Virus record (IMG/VR): IMGVR_UViG_3300042446_002075
Coordinates: 1 to 47,485 of that record
Length of the DNA stretch: 47,485 nucleotides
Reading direction: 5' to 3' (one strand)
Source: a virus
The notes beneath the pieces are model-generated. The model worked only from the letters and a program-made list of their open reading frames with translations. It was not told the DNA's origin and made no database searches. Below are positions 1,405-45,054 of the stretch, piece by piece (the first letter of the stretch is position 1; the number at the start of each line of letters is the position of its first letter). A program made the translations under genes and the position numbers.

Positions 1405-1432
1405 GTTAATACAGAACTACATCTGTATTAAC
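1405..1432 (-). terminator. Hairpin at the end of the glycosyltransferase gene
   Basis: Perfect 11-bp inverted repeat (GTTAATACAGA / TCTGTATTAAC) with a six-base loop, overlapping the TAG stop of the glycosyltransferase. No U-run follows in the minus direction, so it may protect the 3' end of the mRNA or act as a weak terminator rather than a classical intrinsic terminator. Confidence 0.5.
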
Positions 1433-2448
1433 TATCTTGCCTTTATCAAAATATTGATGAACTGCTCGTAGCAATTCTCCCACGTCCATTTTCTTGATTT
1501 GTCATATATCACTTCTCGATCTAAGTAAAGACATTTGTTGACAGCCTCTGTCAAATCTTCCGACATATAACCAGTGATTCCGTTTTCAATAATGTCTTTT
1601 GGTCCTGTTACTGGATATGCAGCAACAGGTGTTCCACAAGCAAGTGCTTCTATATTGACTACGCCGAAAGTGTCAGCCTTTGATGGAAAAACAAATACAG
1701 TTGCTTTCCTGTAGTAATCACCAAGCTCTTTTCCAGTTTTCTTACCGACAAATAAAACATCTGGATATCTCTTTTTGAGTGTTTCAAGATACGGTCCATC
1801 ACCCACAAGTACTTTTTTAGCATTAGGAATATAAATTGAGCAAAAATCATCAAGACCCTTTTCCTGACTTACTCTGCTTACGCATAGAAGCGTAATATTC
1901 TGATCAATATTTGTGCTGGTATTTGATGGATAGAAAATATCTCGGTCAACGCCACGAGTCCATGATCTGATGTCTTGTGTAAAACCCTTATCTTTTAATT
2001 CCTGAACCATGCTATCAGTAGTTGTAAGAATAACAGAAGACCCCTGATATAATTTTCGTATTAACTTCCATCCAAGATCAACAGGAATAAATGACCACTT
2101 AGCATTGATAAATTCGGGAAACTTTGTATGACACGATGTTGAAAACGGAATTCCTAATCTTATACAAGTTCTAATAAAAGATATTCCAAGTGTGCCTTCT
2201 GGTGTTGCAATATGTATATGATCCCACTTTTGTTTTTTGAGAAGTTTTCGTATATGAAACGGATTTGGTAAACCAATTTCAATTTCTGGATAGAACCAAA
2301 GCGAAAATCTTATCTTGCAACGGCGAGGATGATAGACATGAATTGTATCACCATTTTTCCTTGCTTGATAAACTAAGTTGGAAAGGGTAGTTACAACTCC
2401 GTTTACTTGTGGATGCCAAGCATCAGTAATCAGTAGTATCTTGCTCAT
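1432..2448 (-). CDS. GT4-family glycosyltransferase (glycolipid type)
   Basis: 338 aa, the usual length for a GT-B fold GT4 enzyme. The N-terminus has the WHPQVNGVVTTL signature (residues 11-22) typical of diacylglycerol/glycolipid glycosyltransferases such as SqdX- and MgtA-type enzymes; the C-terminal half has a nucleotide-sugar binding pattern with VGDGP and the E-x7-E type motif in DTFGVVNIEALACGTPV. It would transfer a sugar from a nucleotide donor to a membrane lipid or to lipid A/LPS; the acceptor is not visible. Its start overlaps the end of the LpxH-like gene by 26 bases, so the two are co-translated and probably act on the same envelope lipid. A phage copy suggests remodelling of the host surface during infection. 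The family call is firm; the substrate is inference. Confidence 0.9.
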   Translation of the reverse strand: MSKILLITDAWHPQVNGVVTTLSNLVYQARKNGDTIHVYHPRRCKIRFSLWFYPEIEIGLPNPFHIRKLLKKQKWDHIHIATPEGTLGISFIRTCIRLGIPFSTSCHTKFPEFINAKWSFIPVDLGWKLIRKLYQGSSVILTTTDSMVQELKDKGFTQDIRSWTRGVDRDIFYPSNTSTNIDQNITLLCVSRVSQEKGLDDFCSIYIPNAKKVLVGDGPYLETLKKRYPDVLFVGKKTGKELGDYYRKATVFVFPSKADTFGVVNIEALACGTPVAAYPVTGPKDIIENGITGYMSEDLTEAVNKCLYLDREVIYDKSRKWTWENCYEQFINILIKAR

Positions 2449-3187
2449 ATTTTTCCATTCTATATTCTAGTACTTCAAAGCTTCCATCTATATGTTCAAG
2501 TAGTGCTGTTCCAGATTCAACCCAATCTCCACAATTCATATATTCTATTCCATTGATGTCTTTTATAGCTGCGACATGAATATGACCACATATAATTCCA
2601 TCGTATTTTTCTTCAATGCAGTATTCGGAAAGTTTAACTTCAAAGTTATTGATGAAGTTCAACGCTTCTTTGGTATTCTGTTTAAGCCACTTACTAAGGC
2701 TCCAATATTCCATACCTAACATATTACGAACTTTATTAAAGTGAATGTTAACCCAAATCATAAAGTTGTATGCAACATCTCCTATGTGCATCAACCATTT
2801 ATTATCAAGCATCAGCGAATCGAAGAAGTCTCCGTGTATGATTAGATATCTTTTTTCGTTTATTGCTTTATAGTCAATTCGATCAAGAAGTTGTATGTTT
2901 CCTATTTCAATGTCAAATTGAAGAAATTTACGAAATGCTTCGTCGTGGTTGCCAAGTATATAATATACCTTCGTACCTCTTTTTGCAGCAGTCAATATAC
3001 GTCTTATAACATTTGCATGACTTTGTGGGAAAAACCATCTTTTTCTTAGTTGCCATCCGTCTATAACGTCACCAACAAGGAAAAGATTTTCGCATGTATT
3101 TGTCTTTAAAAAGGAACAGAGGGAATCTGCTTGACACCCTCTGGACCCTAAGTGTATATCGGAAATGAAAATACTATTATAATGCAA
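2423..3187 (-). CDS. LpxH-like metallophosphoesterase
   Basis: 254 aa calcineurin-like phosphoesterase with all metal-binding motifs in order: SDIHLG (D10, H12), GDVIDGW (D40), LGNHDE (N80, H81), HGDFFD and GHIH near the C-terminus. This pattern and length match the UDP-2,3-diacylglucosamine pyrophosphatase (LpxH) group of lipid A synthesis and its relatives that sit beside GT4 genes in bacterial genomes. The start is a TTG at 3187-3185 with AGAGG seven bases upstream; no ATG occurs before the first catalytic motif, so the TTG start is needed. A TATAAATA late-type promoter lies about 30 bases upstream. Overlaps the glycosyltransferase by 26 bases. Activity on lipid A precursors is inferred from family and context. 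Confidence 0.88.
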   Translation of the reverse strand: MHYNSIFISDIHLGSRGCQADSLCSFLKTNTCENLFLVGDVIDGWQLRKRWFFPQSHANVIRRILTAAKRGTKVYYILGNHDEAFRKFLQFDIEIGNIQLLDRIDYKAINEKRYLIIHGDFFDSLMLDNKWLMHIGDVAYNFMIWVNIHFNKVRNMLGMEYWSLSKWLKQNTKEALNFINNFEVKLSEYCIEEKYDGIICGHIHVAAIKDINGIEYMNCGDWVESGTALLEHIDGSFEVLEYRMEKYEQDTTDY

Positions 3188-4483: not shown

Positions 4484-4560
4484 TGGTAGACCCTTTCGGA
4501 CTCGAACCGAAATATTCAATCTTATGAGGATTGTTCATTCACCAGTTATGATAAAGGTCC
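4484..4560 (-). tRNA. tRNA with CAU anticodon (Met, or Ile2 if modified)
   Basis: 77-base cloverleaf on the minus strand with CCA encoded: acceptor GGACCTT/AGGGTCT, D stem TCAT/ATGA, anticodon stem CAATC/GATTG around loop CTCATAA (anticodon CAT), T stem TTCGG/CCGAA with loop TTCGAGT. It lacks the GGG/CCC anticodon stem of an initiator tRNA. The C4-G69 and C5-G68 acceptor pairs are those that mark tRNA-Ile2 for TilS in E. coli, and a TilS-like gene lies at 43836, so this may read AUA rather than AUG. A further 10-bp flanking stem (4475-4484 with 4564-4573) probably guides processing. Confidence 0.88.
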
Positions 4561-4586: not shown

Positions 4587-4680
4587 TGGTAGGGATGGTG
4601 GGATTCGAACCCACAATGTGATCATTAATCAGTGAGGCATTTTAAGTGCCTTGCGTTTCAACCAGTTTCGCCACATCCCC
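4587..4680 (-). tRNA. tRNA-Leu (UAA)
   Basis: 94-base cloverleaf on the minus strand with encoded CCA: acceptor GGGGATG/CATCCCT, anticodon stem AGGCA/TGCCT around CTTAAAA (anticodon TAA), a long class II variable arm, and T arm GTGGG-TTCGAAT-CCCAC. It reads UUA, a codon used heavily in this AT-rich genome. It lies upstream of the CAU tRNA and downstream of the structured non-coding region, so all three may be cut from one transcript. Confidence 0.93.
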
Positions 4681-23843: not shown

Positions 23844-25223
23844 ATGTCAGAAGAATACTCACTAGATTTACAAAAGCTTTTTATAGAGTTTATGCAAAAT
23901 GACCATGATCTTTTTGTAAGATGTAATAATATTACACGTCCTAGCTTTTTTGATAGACAACTAAGATCAGCAGTTCGGTTTATTCAAGAACATTCGCAAG
24001 AATATAGTAGTATGCCTTCTTCACAACAAATAAAGGCAAAAACAGGATTGGAGTTGTCAGGTATTACTGATGATATTGAATCACATAAAAAATGGTTTCT
24101 TGATGAATATGAAAAATTTTGCAGACATAAAGCTCTCGAAGAAGCAATCATTGAAAGTATGGAAAAACTTAAAAAGCACGAATATGGTGCAGTTGAACAC
24201 CTTATAAAAGAAGCGGTGTCAATCGGTTTGGCGAAACAAATCGGGATGGATTATTGGAGCAACCCATTGGAAAGACTTAAAGATATACAAAATAATAAGC
24301 CTGCTATCTCAACAGGATGGAAATCTATCGACGCAATTTTATATGGTGGCTTTGAACGTGGAACATTGAATATTTTTGCAGCACCATCTGGACATGGTAA
24401 AAGCCTTTTCTTGCAAAACATATCACTAAACTGGGCATTAGATGGATATAATGTAATATATGTTAGCTTAGAACTTAGTGAAAAGTTGTGTTCAATGCGT
24501 TTCGATAGTATGCTAACAGGATACGGAACCAGAGAATTATTCAAAAACATTGATGACGTTACATTGAAATTAGGAATGATTTCAAAAAAGGCAGGAAGTT
24601 TGCAAATTGTGCAATTGCCTAATGGCATTACTGTTAACGACATTAGAGCATATGTAAAAGAATATACTATTCAAACTGGCAAAAAAGTAGATGCATTGGT
24701 GATAGATTATCTTGATCTTATGATGCCAGCTAAACAAAAAGTTTCATTAAGTGATGTATCACTAAAAGATAAATTAGTTAGTGAAGAATTAAGAAACTTG
24801 TTTATTGAAGGTGATTATCTTAGTGCTACTGCATCACAAATTAATCGTCAAGGTTTAGATGAGCCAGAATATGGAATGGGAACTATTGCTGGTGGTTTGA
24901 CTAAAATTTATACCAGTGACAATGCTATTGGTATTCATGCTAATAGAGCGATGAAAGAGCGTGGTCGTATTCAAATTGAATTCATGAAAACTCGTAGTAG
25001 TGGCGGCGAAGGTAAAAAAGTTGATTTGGCATATGATATTCAATGTATGCGTATTTTAGATTTACCTGATGATCAAGCCGATGTTGATATTAGTAATAAC
25101 AGTGGAATTTATCAAAAGATAAAAGAAAAGCAAAGCGGATCATTGTCTGACCAAGCTGCTGCAAAAATTCCTCAACGAATTGATGCAGATAGACTCCGTA
25201 ATATATTGAAAAGAGCAGAATAA
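23844..25223 (+). CDS. 41: Replicative DNA helicase, gp41-like (DnaB family)
   Basis: 459 aa (T4 gp41 has 475). N-terminal helical domain, then a RecA-like motor with Walker A APSGHGKS (180-187), YVSLELS (about 206-212), Walker B ALVIDYLDL (D288), ATASQINR and a C-terminal MKTRSSGGEGK arginine-finger region. It forms a hexamer that unwinds the fork and activates the primase. AAAGGA precedes the ATG; read with the primase gene. Confidence 0.94.
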   Translation: MSEEYSLDLQKLFIEFMQNDHDLFVRCNNITRPSFFDRQLRSAVRFIQEHSQEYSSMPSSQQIKAKTGLELSGITDDIESHKKWFLDEYEKFCRHKALEEAIIESMEKLKKHEYGAVEHLIKEAVSIGLAKQIGMDYWSNPLERLKDIQNNKPAISTGWKSIDAILYGGFERGTLNIFAAPSGHGKSLFLQNISLNWALDGYNVIYVSLELSEKLCSMRFDSMLTGYGTRELFKNIDDVTLKLGMISKKAGSLQIVQLPNGITVNDIRAYVKEYTIQTGKKVDALVIDYLDLMMPAKQKVSLSDVSLKDKLVSEELRNLFIEGDYLSATASQINRQGLDEPEYGMGTIAGGLTKIYTSDNAIGIHANRAMKERGRIQIEFMKTRSSGGEGKKVDLAYDIQCMRILDLPDDQADVDISNNSGIYQKIKEKQSGSLSDQAAAKIPQRIDADRLRNILKRAE

Positions 25224-33838: not shown

Positions 33839-36088
33839 ATGTCAAATGTAATAGAATTTTCTCGCGATAAAGATACAAGGGATATCATGTCAGATGCCAA
33901 ATTCTACGAGGGATACTCTCGGTGGAATGATGATAAAGGCAGATACGAAACATGGAATGAAGCTGTCGAACGTGTTATGAACACACACAGAGAATTTTAC
34001 AAAAATAAGATGACTCCTGAATTGGAATCACTTATTAACGAAGCTGAAGAATTATACAAGCAAAAGTATTTCTTGGGTGCCCAAAGAGCGTTACAATTTG
34101 GTGGCGATCAGTTGTTAAAGAATCATATGAAACTATATAACTGCACAAGTTCATATGCAGACCGTACAGAATTTTTTGGAGAATATTTTTGGATTCTATT
34201 AAGTGGTTGCGGTGCTGGTTTCTCTGTGCAACAGCATCATATTGCAAAACTTTCTAACATTCAAAATAGAACTAAATCTTCAAAAATTCATGTAATCGAA
34301 GATTCTATAGAAGGATGGGCAGAAGCAGTTGATGTATTACTTTCGTCATATTTTGTTGGTGGTGGTAAGCATCCAGAATTTGAAGGACGTAGAGTATACT
34401 TTGATACATCTTCGATCCGTCCAAAAGGCTCAAAAATTAGTGGGGGATTTAAAGCACCGGGTCCAGAACCGCTACGCCGTGCATTAGATAAAATTGAATA
34501 TTTGCTTCAAGGTCTAGTTCTAAAAGGTGAAACTAAATTAGCATCTATCAATGTATACGATATTTGTATGCATATCGCAGATGCAGTTATCAGTGGTGGT
34601 GTTCGTCGTGCAGCAACCATCTGTTTATTTTCAATTAACGATGAAGAAATGATGAGTGCGAAAACCGGAAATTGGTTTGCAGAAAATCCACAACGTGCAA
34701 GATCAAATAACAGTGCAGTTATTGTTAAAAATACTGCAACATACGAACAGTTTGACTATATTATGCAAAAAGTTAAACAATTCGGTGAGCCAGGATTCGT
34801 TTTTGTCGAATCAACTGAACATGCAACCAATCCATGTGTTGAAATTGGTATGTTTCCACAATATATTGATGAAAACAAAGTAAGTCATAGTGGATGGCAA
34901 GGTTGTAATCTTGCAGAAATAAATGGTGCAAAAGCTAATTCAAAGGAAGAATTCTATAAATCAATTCGTGGTGCTGCCATTGTTGCAACTCTACAAGCTG
35001 GTTATACTAATTTTAAATTTGTCAGTGAAGTAACTAAAAAAATCTTTGAACGTGAAGCACTTCTTGGTGTTTCTATCACTGGATGGATGAATAATCCACA
35101 TGTATTACTTAATGAAGTAGTGCTAAAAGAAGGTGCTGAACTTGTAAAAACTATAAACAAGCAAGTTGCAAAACTAATTGGCATTAATCCAGCAGCAAGA
35201 ACTACTTGTGTTAAGCCAGCAGGAAACGCATCTGTTATTCTTAAAACTGCAAGCGGTGTTCATGGTGAACATTCACCCCGTTATATCCGTAACGTGCAAA
35301 TGAATAAAGATACAGAAGTTGCACAGCTTATTCGCAAAACAAACCCCTACATGGTTGAAGAAAGTGTATGGAGTGCAGGAAGAACTGATTATGTTATTTC
35401 ATTTCCAGTTATTGCACCAATGAGTTCTGTTTTCCGTAAAGATTTGTATGGTCTTAATCTACTTGAAAAAGTAAAACTAATTCAAAACTCTTGGGTAGAA
35501 TTTGGAACAGACGAAGCATTATGTGTTGATCCAACGGTTCGTCATAATGTATCAAATACTATTTCAGTATTGCCAGATCAATGGGAAGAAGTTGGAAAAT
35601 ATATATTTGACAACCGTAAAAGTTTTGCTGGTGTTAGTCTAATGAGTGCATCTGGTGATCGTGATTATAATCAAGCACCAAATACAGAAATTCTTACTGA
35701 GCAAGAAATTGTTAAAAAATATGGACGTGGTGCTATGTTTGCTTCTGGTTTGATTGTTGACACTTTTAAAGGTTTCAATGATTTGTGGGAAGCCTGCACT
35801 ATTGCACAAATGGAAACTGATCACGGTGACAAAGAAAAAAGCGATGTTCGTGCAGAGTGGATTCGTCGTTATCGTAAATTCGCAGAAAGCTATTTTGATG
35901 GTGATCTAAAGAAAACAGAACATTGCTTAAAAGATGTTCATCTATTACATCGTTGGGCAAAAATTCAACAACATTTTGTTAGTATAGACTTTGTTGATGA
36001 ATTAGAAGAAAAGAAATATATTGACATTGATACCATGGGTTCAGCAGCATGTGTTGGAACTAAAGATGGTTTAGGTTGTGCAATTTAA
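33839..36088 (+). CDS. nrdJ: Class II (B12-dependent) ribonucleotide reductase
   Basis: 749 aa, the length of monomeric adenosylcobalamin-dependent ribonucleoside-triphosphate reductase (Lactobacillus type, about 739 aa). Key residues: C102 in NCTSS (first redox Cys), the NPCVEIG block with N331, C333 (thiyl radical) and E335, C356 in GWQGCNLAE (second redox Cys), and SGGVRRAATI typical of the barrel. The C-terminal Cys pair C738/C747 recharges the active site. It makes deoxynucleotides without a separate radical subunit, so it depends on host or environmental B12. A glutaredoxin gene follows. GNRA-capped terminator closes the transcript. Confidence 0.95.
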   Translation: MSNVIEFSRDKDTRDIMSDAKFYEGYSRWNDDKGRYETWNEAVERVMNTHREFYKNKMTPELESLINEAEELYKQKYFLGAQRALQFGGDQLLKNHMKLYNCTSSYADRTEFFGEYFWILLSGCGAGFSVQQHHIAKLSNIQNRTKSSKIHVIEDSIEGWAEAVDVLLSSYFVGGGKHPEFEGRRVYFDTSSIRPKGSKISGGFKAPGPEPLRRALDKIEYLLQGLVLKGETKLASINVYDICMHIADAVISGGVRRAATICLFSINDEEMMSAKTGNWFAENPQRARSNNSAVIVKNTATYEQFDYIMQKVKQFGEPGFVFVESTEHATNPCVEIGMFPQYIDENKVSHSGWQGCNLAEINGAKANSKEEFYKSIRGAAIVATLQAGYTNFKFVSEVTKKIFEREALLGVSITGWMNNPHVLLNEVVLKEGAELVKTINKQVAKLIGINPAARTTCVKPAGNASVILKTASGVHGEHSPRYIRNVQMNKDTEVAQLIRKTNPYMVEESVWSAGRTDYVISFPVIAPMSSVFRKDLYGLNLLEKVKLIQNSWVEFGTDEALCVDPTVRHNVSNTISVLPDQWEEVGKYIFDNRKSFAGVSLMSASGDRDYNQAPNTEILTEQEIVKKYGRGAMFASGLIVDTFKGFNDLWEACTIAQMETDHGDKEKSDVRAEWIRRYRKFAESYFDGDLKKTEHCLKDVHLLHRWAKIQQHFVSIDFVDELEEKKYIDIDTMGSAACVGTKDGLGCAI

Positions 36089-36134: not shown

Positions 36135-36392
36135 ATGAAAATGACAGAAAATAATTCAACTGCAATAATATGGTCAATCAATAACTGCCCATACTGTAGC
36201 CAAGCAAAAAACTTTTTAAAACAAAAAGGCATCGCATACGAAGAAAGAAATCTACAAGAAGGAACATGGTCAAAAGCACAATTATTAGAAAGTGTTCCAA
36301 ATGCAAGAACAGTCCCACAAATATTTTTAGATGATAAATATATTGGTGGATATGACAAATTAGTAGAACATTTTAAGAAAGAAAATAAATGA
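36135..36392 (+). CDS. grx: Glutaredoxin
   Basis: 85 aa, full-length glutaredoxin: CPYC active site (C18, C21), ARTVPQIF cis-Pro loop, and IGGYDKL at the glutathione-binding turn. It supplies electrons, most likely to the ribonucleotide reductase just upstream. A second ATG two codons in is an alternative start. Overlaps the next gene by four bases. Confidence 0.93.
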   Translation: MKMTENNSTAIIWSINNCPYCSQAKNFLKQKGIAYEERNLQEGTWSKAQLLESVPNARTVPQIFLDDKYIGGYDKLVEHFKKENK

Positions 36393-42870: not shown

Positions 42871-43173
42871 ATGGCAGAAATAAAAACAAAAAGAAAAACA
42901 AAAACAAAAATAAACATAGCCGAACCAAAAAAATGGAATGTAGTATTTTATAATGACGACAAAACTCCTATGGATTTTGTGATTGCTGTTTTGGAAGAAG
43001 TTTTTCATTACAATAATGAGAAAGCAATGGAAATGACCCTGCGTATTCATGAAACTAATTCACAAATAGTTGCTACTTATAATTATGAAATTGCAGAACA
43101 AAAAACTTCTGAAACTCTTATGCTGGCTAGAAATTTTAACTTCCCATTTAGAGTAGAATTAATTCAAGAATAA
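42871..43173 (+). CDS. clpS: ClpS-like N-degron adaptor
   Basis: 100 aa. The ClpS core is plain: KKWNVVFYNDDKTPMDFVIA then VLEEVFHYNNEKAMEMTLRI with H60 at the expected place, and a final IVATYNYEIAEQKTSE strand-helix. The N-terminal 20 residues are very basic (KTKRKTKTKIN), unlike most host ClpS. ClpS brings proteins with destabilising N-termini to ClpAP; a phage copy could redirect host proteolysis or block it. AGGAG lies before the ATG. A hairpin overlaps its 3' end. Confidence 0.92.
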   Translation: MAEIKTKRKTKTKINIAEPKKWNVVFYNDDKTPMDFVIAVLEEVFHYNNEKAMEMTLRIHETNSQIVATYNYEIAEQKTSETLMLARNFNFPFRVELIQE

Positions 43174-43675: not shown

Positions 43676-43852
43676 ATGTCATCACAAGATTATACAAATA
43701 TAAAAACGTCTGATAGAATATCAGAACTAGAAAAAAATGTAGAGTTGTTACAAAGAAACGTTTTTGACTTGCAACATCAACTACAAAATGCTTATATCAG
43801 GATAGACACGTTAACCAAAGATATGGCAAGCACACATGATTCGGATTCATAA
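43676..43852 (+). CDS. Small coiled-coil protein, SlyX-like, 58 aa
   Basis: Almost the whole protein is one heptad-repeat helix (SDRISELEKNVELLQRNVFD then LQHQLQNAYIRIDTLTKDM), in size and pattern like the bacterial SlyX family. AGGAGA stands before the ATG. It overlaps the TilS-like gene by 17 bases. Role unknown; it could be a partner of the enzyme encoded next. Confidence 0.68.
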   Translation: MSSQDYTNIKTSDRISELEKNVELLQRNVFDLQHQLQNAYIRIDTLTKDMASTHDSDS

Positions 43853-44447
43853 CCCAGTTGGAACTAAACTTCCTCGCAACATTATGGTTGCATGTAGTGG
43901 CGGTGCGGATAGCATCGCCATTACTCATTTTCTTGCAATAAAACATGATGTCACCGTTGCATACTTTAATCATGGAAATGAATTTGATGCTATGAGCGAA
44001 GAATGGGTTTATGATTGGTGTAAAAACAATTCAATTAAGTTTATAACTGCAAAAATTACACGAGAAAAAAGCAAAAACGAAAGTAACGAAGAATACTGGA
44101 GAAATGAAAGATATGAATGGTTTCATTCGTTGAATAATATTATTGTGACTGCACATCATCTTGATGATTGTATTGAAACATGGATTTGGTCTAGTCTTAA
44201 CGGCGAAGCTAAGATTATTCCATATAGCAATAGAAATGTTATTCGTCCATTCAGAACCAATAAAAAACAAGAACTGGTAGAATGGTGTAATCGACATAAT
44301 GTGGAGTATTTGACTGATCCTTCTAACCAAGACACAAAATATATGCGTAACTATATTAGAAATAATATGATGGATCATGTCCTTCATGTTAATCCGGGAA
44401 TTTCAAAAGTAATTCGCAAGAAAATTATCGAACTATTGAATTTCTAA
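43836..44447 (+). CDS. tilS: TilS-like tRNA(Ile)-lysidine synthetase, 203 aa
   Basis: N-terminal PP-loop ATPase: ACSGGADSIAITHF (P-loop at 21-26), then AYFNHGNEFDAMSEEWVYDW, IVTAHHLDDCIETWIWSS (the HHLDD motif of TilS), RPFRTNKKQELVEWCNRHN and DPSNQDTKYMRNYIRNNM, the last being the TilS 'DPSN...RN.IR' signature. The C-terminal domains of E. coli TilS (432 aa) are absent, as in short versions. TilS turns C34 of tRNA-Ile2(CAU) into lysidine so that it reads AUA. The phage also encodes a CAU tRNA (4484-4560). Overlaps the coiled-coil gene by 17 bases. Confidence 0.88.
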   Translation: MIRIHNPVGTKLPRNIMVACSGGADSIAITHFLAIKHDVTVAYFNHGNEFDAMSEEWVYDWCKNNSIKFITAKITREKSKNESNEEYWRNERYEWFHSLNNIIVTAHHLDDCIETWIWSSLNGEAKIIPYSNRNVIRPFRTNKKQELVEWCNRHNVEYLTDPSNQDTKYMRNYIRNNMMDHVLHVNPGISKVIRKKIIELLNF

Positions 44448-44472: not shown

Positions 44473-45054
44473 ATGGCACATTATGTATTTTTGCATGGAG
44501 CAAACTCAAGTAGTAATAGTTTCAATTATATTATTTCACAACTACAATTAAATAAAAAAGACTTCACTATGATTGATTATAAAAGTTCGGACGGATTTTA
44601 CTTCAATCTAGAAAATATGATGAACAAATTATCAAATAAAAATAAATTGTTTATGGTAGGACATAGCTTAGGAGGAATATATGCATTGCATTTATCAAAA
44701 CTAGTTGACGTAATTGGAGGAATAACCATTGGAACCCCATTTTCAGGAAGTTCATTAGCTGATTGGGCAAGATTTATGATCCCAAATTATCAATTGTTTC
44801 GTGATGTTGGTAGAAATAGTCACCCAATTATAATGGGAAAAAAAATTAATATAAATGTTCCATGGACACAATTAATTAGCACCAAAGGGCGAGTTCCATG
44901 GATGCTTGCAGATAATGATGGTGTAGTGACTATCAGAAGTCAAAAATCTCGAAACGATATGACACATATAGAATTACCATATAATCATTATGAAATAATG
45001 TGTGCCCAAGAAACCCCAAAATTAATATACCAAGAACACAAAAAAATCTCTTGA
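44473..45054 (+). CDS. Alpha/beta hydrolase (esterase/lipase type), 193 aa
   Basis: YVFLHGANSSSNSF is the oxyanion-hole strand; GHSLGG (63-68) carries the nucleophile S65; candidate acid D149 in ADNDGVV and H172 in YNHYEIM complete the triad. The build fits small lipases/acyltransferases rather than peptidases. Substrate unknown; envelope lipid or lysis-linked ester cleavage is possible. AAAGGA before the ATG. The TGA stop is part of the -35 box of the next promoter. Confidence 0.82.
   Translation: MAHYVFLHGANSSSNSFNYIISQLQLNKKDFTMIDYKSSDGFYFNLENMMNKLSNKNKLFMVGHSLGGIYALHLSKLVDVIGGITIGTPFSGSSLADWARFMIPNYQLFRDVGRNSHPIIMGKKININVPWTQLISTKGRVPWMLADNDGVVTIRSQKSRNDMTHIELPYNHYEIMCAQETPKLIYQEHKKIS

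Follow-up and report, generated by a model that had tools for sequence, protein, structure and literature searches.

The window analysed here, meaning the whole 47,485-base stretch of an IMG/VR record classed as a fragment (G+C 33%), comes from a virus of bacteria and carries near its right end a gene that we call mini-tilS (43836..44447, plus strand, ATG start). Its 203-aa product corresponds to the catalytic, N-terminal PP-ATPase domain of lysidine synthetase without the C-terminal domains CTD1 and CTD2. Directly upstream is a 58-aa open reading frame, read from the sequence (43676..43852, plus strand), whose end overlaps the start of mini-tilS by 17 nt, which suggests that the two genes are co-translated. 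Also upstream is a gene for a ClpS-like adaptor of the N-degron type (42871..43173, plus strand; PF02617, 4.6e-25), and directly downstream is a gene resembling those for alpha/beta-hydrolases (44473..45054, plus strand), which matches Pfam Abhydrolase_6 below the cut-off and is syntenic, with 68% identity, in a related contig, G038. Because this downstream gene encodes a hydrolase, the missing domains have not been split off next door. ARAGORN called two tRNAs and no others in the window; both lie near its left end on the minus strand: one with a CAU (CAT) anticodon, of the Ile2 type (4484..4560), and its neighbour, a tRNA-Leu(UAA) (4587..4680), which reads TTA as a preliminary description of this DNA had stated.

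The large terminase was nearest, among annotated phages, to those of the jumbo phages PA5oct and MIJ3 (54%), and a search of annotated phages with the DNA of 42-47 kb returned no match. G038, a near-complete IMG/VR contig of 317,722 bases, is a closer relative, with a terminase 74% identical to that of the window and collinearity over 6.2-47.3 kb (~41 kb). The order ClpS, mini-TilS, hydrolase, HD is common to G038 and the right end of the window, and the G038 site that matches the window tRNAs (23.3-24.4 kb) has the order HNH endonuclease, CAU tRNA, Leu(UAA) tRNA; both mini-tilS and a CAU tRNA thus hold collinear positions in the two genomes. The window probably represents roughly one sixth of a jumbo phage genome, and the absence of a gene from it therefore means little. 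A search of 26 larger contigs with related terminases showed tilS in only 2; most of the 26 are too short for conclusions.

Some window genes were not found in G038. Adjacent glycosyltransferase-like and LpxH-like metallophosphoesterase reading frames (1432-3187, minus strand), host-like surface genes named by eye from their translations, had no counterpart there, and a B12-dependent-type ribonucleotide reductase (33839-36088), with a glutaredoxin-like reading frame at 36135-36392, had no G038 match though its neighbours match. ARAGORN also called a tRNA with anticodon CUA, of the amber suppressor type, in G038 (138544-138617, equal to L291:18544-18617), and from this call it is possible that TAG is recoded in that phage.

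Sequence and structure comparisons confirmed that the gene at 43836-44447 encodes a TilS-like enzyme, as had been proposed from its motifs. The product contains SGGADS (the PP-loop), HHLDD and DPSN...RNYIR, it matches TIGR02432 (lysidine_TilS_N) with 124.7 bits against a curated cut-off of 93.6 (4e-36) and Pfam ATP_bind_3 at 8.9e-34, and its PDB sequence matches are the TilS proteins of E. coli, Aquifex and Geobacillus. An AlphaFold (AF2) model had a pLDDT of 95.1, and the first five Foldseek ranks for this model were all TilS (2e21, 1ni5, 1wy5 and 2e89 were best), with TM scores of 0.77-0.82 by query length. The motifs SGGxDS, HHxDD..ET (HxLDD/E), R..RY and RN..R are invariant or more than 90% conserved in 45 diverse phage sequences. 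It is extremely unlikely that the product is instead another PP-loop tRNA enzyme, such as a TtcA/TtuA-like thiolase or a QueC-like protein: these proteins belong to one superfamily with TilS, and weak matches to PAPS reductase were seen, but the model scored over cut-off is specific to TilS, the first-ranked fold is TilS with TtuA, LarE and QueC lower in the list, and the CxxC pair is absent from the sequence, which argues against a thiolase or QueC assignment.

Whether a tRNA with a CAU anticodon stands for Met or for Ile depends on TilS, which is considered to make this distinction with the aid of its C-terminal domains. The published classes are type I, with CTD1 and CTD2, and type II, with CTD1 only; in bacterial type I enzymes CTD2 contacts the acceptor stem, and lysidinylation by the E. 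coli and Burkholderia proteins depends on CTD2 residues (PMC12514573). The phage protein shares its catalytic N-terminal domain, motifs and fold with the type II enzyme of Aquifex aeolicus (1wy5/2e21/2e89), but the latter has 317 aa including a C-terminal domain, whereas the phage protein ends after the catalytic domain. Its domain is likewise homologous to the catalytic domain of type I enzymes (E. coli 1ni5, Geobacillus 3a2k), but these have CTD1 plus the acceptor-stem reader CTD2 (PMC12514573), and the phage form has neither.

This reduced form is a property of a whole family. IMG/VR was searched with the phage homologues and named phages were added, yielding 159 viral loci, which formed 61 clusters when grouped at 90% identity. 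All of these loci encode proteins of 195-210 aa, whereas the complete bacterial relatives (76 genes, the closest in the GTDB collection) encode 291-563 aa; no TilS of intermediate length was found among these loci and genes. Looking for a C-terminal tRNA-binding domain, we found 0-13 aa beyond the catalytic domain in the complete viral copies of the first set, compared with 92-253 aa in bacteria. Since the C-terminal domains are missing, mini-TilS is a TilS variant that is neither type I nor type II. One branch separates the phage from the bacterial sequences (SH-aLRT 99; 37 vs 38 rows), which fits a single phage TilS family that lost, or never had, these domains. A domain of this kind might have given up lysidinylation and might, for example, bind CAU tRNA and compete with host TilS or MetRS, or shield tRNAs from host anticodon nucleases; the absence of the two C-terminal domains from all viral copies examined and the separate phage branch speak for this, but the near-invariance of the catalytic motifs across the 45 diverse sequences and the over-cut-off score to TIGR02432, an equivalog-domain model, speak against it, and we consider such a change of function improbable.

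The preliminary description had also reported a CAU tRNA with C4-G69 and C5-G68 at 4484-4560, and both the ARAGORN call and the acceptor pairs bear this out. The acceptor stem consists of G1-U72, G2-C71, A3-U70, C4-G69, C5-G68, U6-G67 and U7-A66, with discriminator A73, and the anticodon loop is CUCAUAA. Initiator features (a C1xA72 mismatch and a GGG/CCC anticodon stem) are absent, the tRNA having G1-U72 and the stem CAATC/GATTG. When it was aligned with related tRNAs, 100% of cells were paired and two-sided changes occurred in 14 of 21 pairs, a value as high being found in 0 of 500 shuffles; full pairing together with such compensatory changes indicates that this tRNA is maintained under selection. 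The pairs C4-G69 and C5-G68 had been put forward as marks that help E. coli TilS to tell tRNA-Ile2 from tRNA-Met. They do bear on the identity of the tRNA, but the phage enzyme is without the CTD2 by which bacterial type I TilS contacts the acceptor stem, and it may recognise the tRNA in another manner.

The assignment to the Ile2 class came from the kind of Met/Ile2 classifier that had been suggested as a check, a position-weight comparison built on 43 Ile2 and 45 elongator-Met bacterial CAU tRNAs, taken from some 140 genomes in two bacterial phyla plus a few more, labelled by anticodon loop with the two labelling positions unscored. In leave-one-out trials 86 of 88 tRNAs were classified correctly, one of the two misses appearing to be mislabelled, and held-out E. 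coli tRNAs fell on their correct sides (ileX +19.9, after extension by one base to 77 nt; metT -29.7). The window tRNA scored +41.7 bits for Ile2 against elongator Met, with +28.9 bits from the acceptor stem alone, and its 5' acceptor strand, GGACCTT, is identical in a Bacillales Ile2. Two simpler measures were rejected: C4-G69 and C5-G68 alone, which occur in 26 and 33, respectively, of the 43 bacterial Ile2 tRNAs, and identity to E. coli tRNAs, which was not decisive (ileX 55% vs metT 52%). ARAGORN names the window tRNA Met, reading only the anticodon, and one CAU tRNA of MIJ3 is Met-e-like, but given the classifier scores and the lack of initiator features it is very unlikely that the window tRNA belongs to the elongator tRNA-Met class instead of being the TilS substrate. 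The IleRS elements of E. coli are U12-A23 and C29-G41; the window tRNA carries A12-U23 and A29-U41, to which we give low weight since the IleRS of the host may differ.

At the collinear site in G038 (24083-24159) the CAU tRNA is of a different kind, 56% identical to that of the window, and a CAU tRNA with 73% identity to the window's is located in the large tRNA cluster of G038 (139709-139785). CAU tRNAs seem to have been exchanged between places in these phages.

Both TilS and tRNA-Ile2 have been reported from phages before. The TilS of MIJ3 and PA5oct (PMC6892783) belongs to one family with the window protein (42% identity, 203 aa), and by the classifier MIJ3 also has an Ile2-type CAU tRNA. 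The MIJ3 protein was reported with function unknown and with a suggested role in the upkeep of host viability, and the portion of that report available to us draws no link to the phage's own tRNAs (PMC6892783). Phage-encoded TilS has also been reported, by annotation, from pelagimyophages (PMC7029224) and from RsoM2USA, but the latter protein is nearly full size at 349 aa compared with 203 aa here (PMC8504454). T4-like phages have a tRNA-Ile2(CAU) that requires lysidine, as here, with the modification ascribed to host enzymes in the accessible part of that study (PMC1524935), and lysidine (k2C34) has been shown on a vibriophage tRNA according to the accessible part of a review (PMC13191261); unlike the window phage, neither case comes with a phage TilS in those parts of the two sources.

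Two CAU tRNAs of MIJ3 (LR588166; L008:6831-6907 and L008:7312-7388) match base for base over a 59-nt body, which extends from position 8 to the end of the T stem, but their acceptor stems are entirely unlike: the tRNA with CCCTCGG (C1-G72) scores as Met-e and the one with GGGACTT as Ile2. The pair looks like an acceptor-stem swap that changed tRNA identity. As the two differ only in the acceptor stem and the enzyme is without an acceptor-reading domain, they sharpen the question of how a one-domain TilS selects its tRNA.

A connection between the enzyme and the phage's own tRNA was indicated by gene position. In 9 of the 61 clusters mini-tilS has a tRNA at a distance of no more than 500 bp, and in all nine the nearest is a CAU tRNA, 8-57 bp away, although CAU tRNAs account for 19 of the 223 tRNAs in mini-tilS loci (8.5%). 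On the tree this adjacency requires three changes, or approximately three independent origins, and a conservative chance estimate was therefore computed as 0.085^3, ~6e-4. In loci L053 (20.6 kb), L018 (13.8 kb) and L055 no tRNA was found other than the adjacent CAU tRNA. Classifier scoring took in five of the nine adjacent tRNAs (leaving out L325, L026, L379 and L369), and these five lean to Ile2 by +1.6 to +33.7 bits. The adjacent tRNA of L011, 57 bp from mini-tilS, resembles the window's kind, being 78% identical to the G038 tRNA that is itself 73% identical to the window's. No other evidence speaks as strongly as this physical linkage for an action of the enzyme on the phage's own CAU tRNA. 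Linkage was used in place of a test of whether mini-TilS and Ile2 tRNA are present or absent together, which was dropped because fragments dominate the collection and T4-like phages have Ile2 tRNAs without a detectable mini-TilS relative. We also found tmRNA genes on three mini-tilS contigs (L018:9115-9515, L055:7858-8294 and L308:14732-15120); in L018 a tmRNA, mini-tilS and a CAU tRNA follow one another within 1.6 kb.

The two genes are separated by 39 kb in the window, by 55 kb in G038 and by about 7 kb at least in MIJ3, and 50 of the 59 scorable clusters have no adjacent CAU tRNA. Among the mini-tilS contigs of at least 100 kb, an Ile2 tRNA was not found in 2 of 10 (G017 and G034, both fragments), and the CAU tRNAs of G020 and G036 were ambiguous by the classifier. 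Mini-TilS could thus be a true lysidine synthetase that has host tRNA-Ile2 as its main substrate, with the phage tRNA an ordinary T4-like Ile2 that host TilS could also modify. The clusters without an adjacent CAU tRNA and at least one large contig (G034) without an Ile2 tRNA favor this explanation, as do the Ile2 tRNAs of T4-like phages, in which a protein search of annotated phages found no mini-TilS relative; the host enzyme can presumably suffice for phage Ile2 tRNAs, as is presumed for T4-like phages in the accessible part of that study (PMC1524935). A target in the host only, however, does not predict that the nearest tRNA is CAU in nine of nine clusters, and we regard this explanation as unlikely. 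In openly licensed papers, literature searches recovered no report of linkage between TilS and a phage CAU tRNA or of a one-domain phage TilS family; as far as these papers show, the pairing and the one-domain form are new, while TilS and tRNA-Ile2 of phages have separately been published.

The window had been described as AT-rich with frequent ATA codons, and codon counts agreed: there are 32.6 ATA per 1000 codons, and 39% of the Ile codons are ATA. The value was 41.9 per 1000 in G038 and also in a 50-kb sample of MIJ3, where ATA accounts for 57% of Ile codons vs 43% expected from four-fold sites. A host with few AUA codons had been proposed for the window phage; such a host is found for MIJ3, its nearest cultured relative, since P. 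aeruginosa, on which MIJ3 grows, uses AUA at 0.9 per 1000 (PMC12514573). Observed/expected ratios for ATA were 0.80 in the window, 1.04 in G038 and 1.32 in MIJ3, and ATA stood at 0.25-0.53 of expectation in mini-tilS-free phages of similar G+C (RaK2, 121Q, T4 and CBB). Across mini-tilS phages the relaxation was weak and not significant (median observed/expected 0.61, n=38, vs 0.44, n=7; p=0.057) and no difference was seen between mini-tilS loci and terminase-related fragments in which tilS had not been detected; we make no claim that phages of this kind in general avoid AUA less.

The Ile2-type tRNA, and the CAU tRNAs adjacent to mini-tilS in related phages, give good support to the proposal of an AUA-decoding pair that belongs to the phage itself. 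Given the gene, its fold and catalytic motifs, the tRNA class, the recurrent linkage and the high AUA usage, it seems probable that these phages encode a two-part AUA-decoding module, in which a single-domain TilS makes lysidine at C34 of a phage tRNA-Ile2(CAU). Lysidine formation, the choice of substrate and the benefit during infection are the steps that we infer. The tRNA at 4484-4560 would be transcribed as a tRNA-Ile2 with a CAU anticodon, and mini-TilS, by the known chemistry of TilS, would adenylate C34 and add lysine, using ATP and lysine, to form lysidine. The lysidine-bearing tRNA would then be charged with isoleucine and read AUA instead of AUG, so that AUA-rich phage genes could stay translatable at times when the host has little tRNA-Ile2 or TilS capacity or is losing it, and a limit on AUA decoding during infection would be relieved. 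Because mini-TilS is without the C-terminal domains with which bacterial TilS holds the tRNA, recognition must occur otherwise, probably via the anticodon arm and phage-specific surface residues. A broader proposal, whose chances we judge to be even, is that a third class of lysidine synthetase has arisen in large phages, made of one domain and working without the C-terminal tRNA readers that have been considered necessary; dedicated to phage tRNA-Ile2, it would act as a self-sufficient switch of CAU from AUG to AUA reading that is independent of host TilS.

With an AUA-decoding module of this kind, phages carrying the pair could use AUA freely whatever the host does, and the decoding kit would let an AT-rich virus use this codon at ~45x the rate of its host, going by the figures for MIJ3 and P. 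aeruginosa. Enzyme and tRNA together would offer a concrete reason for the presence of TilS in phages such as MIJ3, where it has been listed without a function. A viral family that consists of the catalytic domain only would imply either another way of choosing the tRNA or a lesser need for discrimination, and this widespread one-domain family offers a direct way to test what lysidine formation minimally requires.
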